DNA of 64,000 nt, taken from contig JAFWMH010000026.1 in the NCBI GenBank assembly GCA_017510785.1, forward strand, positions 1-64,000, read 5' to 3'. The translations under genes were made by a program, and so were the position numbers. Source of the stretch: Atopobiaceae bacterium. Its GTDB lineage: Bacteria > Actinomycetota > Coriobacteriia > Coriobacteriales > Atopobiaceae. This document shows positions 11,652-21,521 of the stretch, piece by piece. The notes below the pieces were generated by a model, which ran no database searches, was not told the DNA's origin, and saw only the letters and a list, made by a program, of their open reading frames with translations. Numbering within the stretch: the first letter of the stretch is position 1; every line of letters begins with the position of its first letter.

Positions 11652-11749
11652 GGTTTCTCCTCACGTCGGCCCTGGTTTCCGACCAGGACATCGATTCTTC
11701 GCCGAGGCACAGGGCAGGACACCTGCCACCTCAACGGTCAAGCTGCACT

Positions 11750-20962: not shown

Positions 20963-21336
20963 GTCCTCTCCTTCTTCGACTTTGGTGGCTCGCACTCCCT
21001 GGCAAGCCATACTCACACGTAGACCATAATACCGCAAATTGGGACAGTAATAAAAGAGCACGGGGTAGATGGCGAGATTCTCACAAGGGGCAGGCTGCCT
21101 CGCGGGTGGGGTGCCACACGTGGGAGTTTGTCTCTCGGGCAATGGCCCCCAACGGTCGGCTCGCGATCGGCTCGCTCGAACCAGCCCGAGCTCATACATG
21201 CTAGCACTCTTTACACGCTATCACTCTTACGATATGGTTTTTCTTGAAATCTGCCCCAAGGAACCGATTTCCCAAGAGAGAGCGTCTCGCCAAAGGTCCT
21301 CTCGAAGCTTTCCACGGAATGGCCATGCATCAAAGT
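20963..21336. other. Long upstream region of nifJ
   Basis: No gene is seen. It holds the nifJ leader, a weak candidate -10 (TATTAT on the minus strand, complement of 21026-21031), and a pair of tandem near-identical motifs at 21196-21228 described separately. The open frames crossing it lack start signals and family similarity. Confidence 0.5.
21196..21228. repeat. Tandem pair of 16-bp motifs upstream of nifJ
   Basis: ACATGCTAGCACTCTT (21196-21211) and ACACGCTATCACTCTT (21213-21228) differ at two positions and are repeated with a 17-bp period, about 235 bp upstream of nifJ. A direct repeat of this size fits a pair of regulator half-sites. No regulator is assigned. Confidence 0.55.
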
Positions 21337-21441
21337 TTCAATGTGTACAATTTCCCCGCCAGAAAACCGGCCCAATGTACAATTCGAGACTAGAATTGTA
21401 CATTGAGCCGGTTTTTGGGAACGATAATTGTACACATTGAA
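21337..21441. repeat. 105-bp nested palindrome with four TGTACA cores
   Basis: Outer arms TTCAATGTGTACAATT (21337-21352) and its exact complement (21426-21441) enclose inner arms 21363-21385 and 21393-21415, which are complementary over 23 bp with one mismatch and flank a 7-bp loop (GAGACTA). The inner arms carry AAAACCGGC and GCCGGTTTT at their outer ends, so it could also work as a bidirectional terminator. TGTACA cores begin at 21344, 21376, 21397 and 21429, with 32-21-32 bp spacing. It lies between divergent nifJ and gluQ. Confidence 0.9.
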
Positions 21442-21521
21442 CTATAGATATCAGCATTTTTTTCAAATGTGGCAACATGAGTCCGAGCGAACACACCACG
21501 AGCGAGTAGAAAGGATCACAC

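Follow-up and report, generated by a model that had tools for sequence, protein, structure and literature searches.

Architecture of the palindrome between nifJ and gluQ

The stretch of DNA analysed here (the window, 64,000 nucleotides of an Atopobiaceae contig) raises the question of why a long nested palindrome should lie between two divergent genes, nifJ (pyruvate:ferredoxin oxidoreductase, TIGR02176, 17438–20977 on the minus strand) and gluQ (GluQRS, NF004315, 21522–22448 on the plus strand), both of which are treated as context only. The palindrome, to which no strand is assigned, spans 21337–21441 and is evident both as an inverted repeat, with arms of 52 nt each (21337–21388 and 21390–21441) that are 83% complementary, and from the RNA fold of its single strand, which reaches −59.5 kcal/mol (z of −11.9, with 0 of 200 shuffles as good). 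Exact matches to AATTGTACA occur at 21344 and 21376 on the minus strand and at 21394 and 21426 on the plus strand, which means that TGTACA starts at 21344, 21376, 21397 and 21429 with a spacing of 32-21-32 bp. The sequence search thus confirms the 105-bp nested palindrome with this spacing of cores that was described in a first-pass annotation. The two outer cores (21344–21349 and 21429–21434) and the two inner cores (21376–21381 and 21397–21402), none assigned to a strand, all correspond to alignment columns that are nearly invariant in 28 copies of the element. When AATTGTACA is required to be followed by CATTGAA, there are 2 matches in the window, both within the palindrome, and 0 in 100 dinucleotide shuffles.

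Judged from the other copies, the conserved unit probably extends somewhat beyond the palindrome, to ATCAAAG on the left (from 21329) and to GATATC on the right (to 21452). The terminal segments ATCAAAGTTTCAATG (21329–21343) and CATTGAACTATAGATATC (21435–21452), again strandless, are therefore probable ends of the element, with limits estimated from similar ends in other copies and species. The sole Rfam match in the window is an L31-Coriobacteria ribosomal protein leader (11657–11689, minus strand).

Dispersed copies in the home genome

It had been proposed that the palindrome controls nifJ, gluQ or both. This proposal did not survive comparison: some 30 copies, of which the window palindrome is one, lie scattered through the genome next to unrelated genes, and in the three relatives inspected (G004, G011 and G014), in each of which nifJ and gluQ are close neighbours, the palindrome is absent from the gap between them, so that conservation at orthologous promoters was not found. 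An operator dedicated to these two genes was rejected on both grounds.

Within the window's own genome (G000; 3.56 Mb in 81 contigs, 96.4% complete), BLASTN locates the element at 31 distinct places, with a full copy at 30 and a partial one at the other, and with identities mostly of 74–83%; a 12-base arm pattern adds two further partial copies for an overall count of 30 full and 3 partial. The spacing is unaltered from 32-21-32 in all but 2 of the 30 full copies, which have indels (+1 and −2); among the other 28, the TGTAC/GTACA cores are perfect in 26 and contain one mismatch in 2. The counts of invariant columns and of paired changes were restricted to these 28 copies; aligned without gaps, they have 18 of 20 core columns invariant as compared to 14 of 81 others. 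The four phased cores and the nested arms have persisted as the rest of the sequence drifted. This phasing upholds the earlier reading of the four cores as protein recognition sites, a reading that also fits the occurrence of the same plan with other arms in 12 species.

All 25 copies scanned are located outside called genes, where the gene calls are rough ones from a codon-score caller made for this analysis. The named neighbours of the copies (an EF-G-like protein, a flotillin-like protein, SSB, a GltD-like oxidoreductase, acetate kinase, an alpha-amylase-like protein and a hydrogenase-like protein) are so varied that no shared function is apparent. An integron-like cassette array was also considered and set aside, as the copies are mostly solitary amid ordinary genes. 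Two further features of the copies were seen. When referred to the two dissimilar ends of the element, the loop TTCGGAGACAAAA points one way in some copies and the other way in others, as though the centre had been inverted (L022–L052), and two truncated copies near contig ends (L112 near 2560 and L098:100–160) adjoin the same stretch, GAGCAGTCTCGGATTCTAT.

The same plan in related species

The elements of relatives have arms that cannot be aligned with those of the home genome, with the plan of four TGYRCA cores about 32/33-21-32/33 apart being kept. The arms vary by species (e.g., TGTACAATTTC, TGTACACAAAACGCGAC, TGTACACTAGACGTC and TGCGCACTTTCCG), as do the cores (TGTACA, TGCGCA and TGCACA), and a copy in G002 illustrates the pattern with different outer arms at unchanged spacing. 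The pattern TGTAC-27-TGTAC-17-GTACA-27-GTACA, with at most 1 mismatch, is present in 4 of 140 genomes of the family, all within this genus, while a search of the 395 genomes of the order for TGYRCA cores at 31–34/21/31–34 gave matches in 12, namely 10 of the 16 belonging to this genus and 2 from another; a reversed control pattern gave 0 of 395. The middle spacing of 21 is preset by these search patterns, and copies found via one arm alone show it too.

A scan of named genomes returned 3 matches, of which two were exact and lie in uncultured Coriobacteriaceae MAGs (RUG14867 and RUG13877), and the third, in Sutcliffiella, is a tandem array judged unrelated. A phage or plasmid element was likewise rejected: BLASTN of the window element against plasmids and phages gave no match, neither the exact TGTAC/GTACA pattern nor that of TGYRCA at 32-21-32 occurs in any of the viral contigs searched, and the 33-21-33 TGYRCA pattern occurs in 4, which were judged unrelated upon reading (3 poorly paired, at 21–25 of 46, and 1 a short-repeat array, at 33 of 46). 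Among the relatives, one G002 copy (L152:182–260, C4) is left with its outer arms after loss of the inner hairpin, the two inner cores included, and G007 (L253, L254 and L256) carries several copies of a second palindrome family, GGGGATACTCCCC...GGGTACATCGCG...CGCGATGTACCC.

A gene framed by palindromes

On the window's own contig (C80), two copies at 106392 and 108772, 2.3 kb apart, enclose an open reading frame of 371 amino acids (L087:3639–4754), and in G014 a homologue of 364 amino acids lies between two copies (L187:2903–3997). Searching the collected loci by tblastn gave homologues in G008, G004, G001 and G148, and further stretches gave a second G004 gene, so that a gene of about 365 amino acids with palindromes on both sides is found at 7 loci in six species (G000, G014, G008, G004 twice, G001 and G148). 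The downstream palindrome begins 18, 93, 49, 56, 78 or 160 nt after the stop codon, or abuts or overlaps the stop codon in G148, where it is shortened on one side; the upstream gap is 237–1179 nt across the 7 loci, with degenerate cores in the G001 copy. For 31 copies in 3.56 Mb, the chance of a copy within 160 nt downstream is 0.0014 and within 1200 nt upstream 0.010, values that have to be read with the fact that the loci searched had been chosen mainly for holding palindromes, so that unflanked homologues could escape. A profile search of the collected loci recovered the 7 flanked loci along with a distant G002 homologue (26%), which is unflanked with its nearest palindrome about 4.5 kb off, and a Collinsella homologue without palindromes.

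The flanking pair is in direct orientation at 6 of the 7 loci, and at the G001 locus the inverted match is slightly better (75 vs. 68). The best matches of the flanking copies are mostly in the same genome, a preference that holds for G014, G008 and G148, with G001 as the exception, where the gene-flanking copies are most like G002 elements. The two G004 genes are each surrounded by a different palindrome type, and a solitary G004 copy (C60) is closest to the C90 type (0.76–0.77), above any other-genome copy compared. The collected loci revealed no gene to go with the commonest palindrome type of G001, nor any in G007, G005, G010, G013 or G141; in G007, two palindromes 2.2 kb apart have a different protein encoded between them. 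Upstream of the G001 gene, around the flanking palindrome, lies an array of GGTMCACTTT-type half-sites (L249:1950–2300, C75).

The similarity of the encoded protein to known families is faint. Pfam DUF559 matches 2 of 6 members with E-values of 0.006 and 0.014, under the curated cut-off (best score 16.8 bits vs. 20.6), so its likeness to DUF559 proteins is sub-threshold. PADLOC gave no match for it, NCBIfam no credible family, and PHROGs and PDB sequences nothing credible, while the N-terminal 250 or so residues match nothing in Pfam, NCBIfam, PADLOC or PDB sequences. By hhalign, it aligns to the Collinsella protein with a probability of 98.4% (E of 1e-14), and that protein in turn has sub-threshold DUF559 and MTES_1575 nuclease matches. 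Alignment to the E. coli DUF559 protein YcjD brings the spaced residues E..G..H..D..R..G near the C terminus into register, although the match is not significant (E of 0.26, probability 0.2%). Invariant in the 6 partner sequences are TPD261, E272, G275, D287, R290 and DYQxLG, among which D261, E272, D287 and R290 may be residues of a putative PD-(D/E)XK site. No homologues were found in phages, none of 24 pattern candidates in viral contigs was confirmed, and the one match in the plasmid collection is the Collinsella record.

A probable mobile repeat with a putative partner protein

The genomes thus hold a dispersed repeat of conserved architecture and a homologous gene framed by palindromes in six species. 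We consider it fairly probable, judging from the sequences compared, that the window palindrome is a copy of a non-autonomous, REPIN-like mobile repeat that is bound and probably spread by the DUF559-like partner protein. The protein, which putatively has a nuclease fold, would contact all four TGYRCA cores on the same face of the double helix and would copy or move the palindromes in trans, probably via a hairpin or paired-end intermediate. The window copy would then be the product of an insertion between nifJ and gluQ, and any influence on either gene would be incidental. Neither excision nor a precise empty site nor a target-site duplication was observed. Literature searches on DUF559 with palindromes or mobility, on extragenic palindromes and endonucleases in Coriobacteria and on Eggerthella repeats yielded no account of such a system, the papers returned being unrelated, for DUF559 with palindromes as judged by title and abstract.

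The main rival to this reading remains one in which the copies are dispersed binding sites that persist because a protein of the host, either a regulator or a nucleoid protein, needs four of them in phase, with the flanked gene encoding that protein and controlling itself. Evidence for it comes from 13 copies in the home genome that were duplicated together with their surroundings, in which the core has accumulated 0.159 substitutions per site with 0.021 gap openings per substitution, compared to 0.331 and 0.398 substitutions per site and 0.114 and 0.118 gaps per substitution in the left and right flanks, respectively (the right-flank figure may partly stem from short internal repeats). The flanks have thus diverged 2 times faster, with indels per substitution 5 times higher, and the core has been constrained after duplication. 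This slower evolution of the core could also reflect host function or gene conversion. The host-site reading is also favoured by the absence of copies from called genes, by the persistence of phased cores where arms have been lost, and by the base that follows the core being common to inner and outer sites, which agrees in 12.5 of 13 element types (permutation p of 0.003; across four bases after the core, p of 0.049), these types lacking phylogenetic independence. Nevertheless, the genes beside the copies are unrelated, the element was detected in just 10 of 16 species of the genus, and the copies have their full-length sequence in common, which points to spread by duplication and not to separate origin. 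We regard host binding sites as unlikely relative to the mobile repeat; whether core constraint after duplication stems from mobility or from host use is a question that these data make testable.

The longer dispersed repeat in which these 13 copies lie (L024, L027, L028, L029, L034–L037, L041, L043, L044, L048 and L050) has outer tails that resemble each other in direct orientation, and its tail also stands alone at about 8 further places (L241–L248), somewhat like solo repeats. Among matches to this flanking repeat without a palindrome, right-tail-only matches are present and no clean empty site was found.

The strong fold (z of −11.9) suggests another account, in which the element acts as an RNA hairpin at the 3' ends of genes, either a mobile bidirectional terminator or an mRNA stabiliser. 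In this species A/T tracts surround the inner stem, with a G+C stem followed by a T tract on both strands, so that the earlier suggestion of a bidirectional terminator may be right for the home genome, but the tracts are absent from the elements of G008, G014 and G004, and a terminator is for this reason not the conserved feature. Of the 26 copies (25 listed and the window copy), the 20 whose called neighbours are separated by 1500 nt or less lie in 12 tandem, 6 convergent and 2 divergent gaps, and 10 of the 12 tandem copies are nearer the end of the upstream gene, as the RNA account would have it, whereas the window copy lies between divergent genes. The inner stem also shows signs of compensatory change: its two sides pair better within a copy (0.886) than between copies (0.827), a difference matched in 0 of 2000 permutations; for the outer stem the two values are equal at 0.693 (29 own copies, L024 being left out as unplaceable and L048 kept despite an indel). 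In the 28 copies, inner-stem cells with changes on both sides of a pair number 47 vs. 33.5 for shuffled data (the observed count being reached by 1 of 500), with unremarkable values both for the pairs having such changes (17 vs. 15.5, 129 of 500) and for further pair types (39 vs. 37.9, 193 of 500). A preference of wobble pairs for the sense strand, counted in 28 copies for totals and in 11 tandem copies for the comparison of strands, is weak (49 to 31, p of 0.057), and a terminator would need no fixed spacing of cores. Taken as the explanation of the element as a whole, the RNA hairpin is in our judgement quite improbable.

Comparison with known hairpin repeats

The proposed mobile repeat with a DUF559-like partner can be placed beside REPINs. 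Among hairpin repeats that have a gene of their own these are the best known, and they are described as having fixed length, a hairpin, compensatory changes and a flanked gene for a tyrosine transposase (PMC3116915). The likeness is considerable, as the present elements are also short hairpin doublets of fixed length, inverted and dispersed outside genes, of types specific to each genome, with a related gene framed by copies. They differ in having four TGYRCA cores in a nested palindrome and a DUF559-like partner in place of a Y1 transposase, and we noticed no GTAG or CGTC tag at their ends. According to PMC3733652, CGTC repeats seem to be without a dedicated transposase, and TIRtrons are RAYT-like genes flanked by inverted repeats. 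The present system resembles TIRtrons in that a gene is framed by short repeats which also form dispersed families, but its partner protein has no Y1_Tnp match and its flanking copies are in direct orientation at all but one of the loci.

We put forward more tentatively, as a possibility of somewhat lesser standing than the mobile repeat itself, that a PD-(D/E)XK-type (DUF559-like) protein has here taken the place of the tyrosine transposase, recognising and spreading hairpin repeats through four helically phased TGYRCA sites, with the lineage of the enzyme and the type of palindrome diverging together between species. If hairpin repeats are associated with a second protein that is unrelated to the first, this would point to more than one origin of such systems, and orphan repeats would gain a candidate class of partner.

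The earlier note had also offered a small inverted-repeat mobile element as an alternative, and this comes closer to our reading, but the copies are mostly 74–83% identical where such an element would have near-identical ones, no target-site duplication was seen, and there is a candidate partner gene. In its classical form, that of a MITE mobilised by the transposase of an ordinary insertion sequence through recognition of the arms, this explanation has inverted symmetry, intergenic position and copy number in its favour, and terminal inverted repeats with several dispersed copies are indeed present. The one candidate for an autonomous element with the same ends is the palindrome-flanked gene, whose role in movement is putative. 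Against it, the arm GTGTACAATTTC (at most 1 mismatch) has 58 matches nearly all in palindromes, none of which was recognised as flanking a transposase, and by eye no target-site duplication appears in flanks whose exact boundaries with the element are uncertain. ERIC and other imperfect-palindrome MITEs (see also the MITE review PMC10969869) share a length of about 100–130 bp, an intergenic position and tens of copies, but the present element stands apart by its species-specific arms, by the fixed spacing of its cores and by having a candidate partner gene. A classical MITE is very improbable.

Still less credible, and mostly refuted, is the idea that the element is a REPIN in the strict sense, with a RAYT tyrosine transposase moving it. 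A fixed-length hairpin doublet with compensatory changes would fit it, as reported for REPINs (PMC3116915), and Y1_Tnp matches are present in 15 of 16 genomes of the genus. However, PF01797 has 0 matches in the home genome at its 96.4% completeness, and 29 of the 30 Y1_Tnp loci examined in relatives are without such an element, the one exception having it about 1.3 kb away. A RAYT with REPINs proper was rejected on these grounds, together with the fact that the Y1_Tnp loci of relatives carry palindromes of other kinds, with at least 1 at 13 of the 30 loci and on both sides of the match at 8 of them. At these 8 (L200, L205, L207, L211, L212, L214, L215 and L219, with the match near 1501–1840), the other palindromes are mostly near-identical within a locus, and the loci framed in this way are apparently ordinary REPIN-RAYT units.
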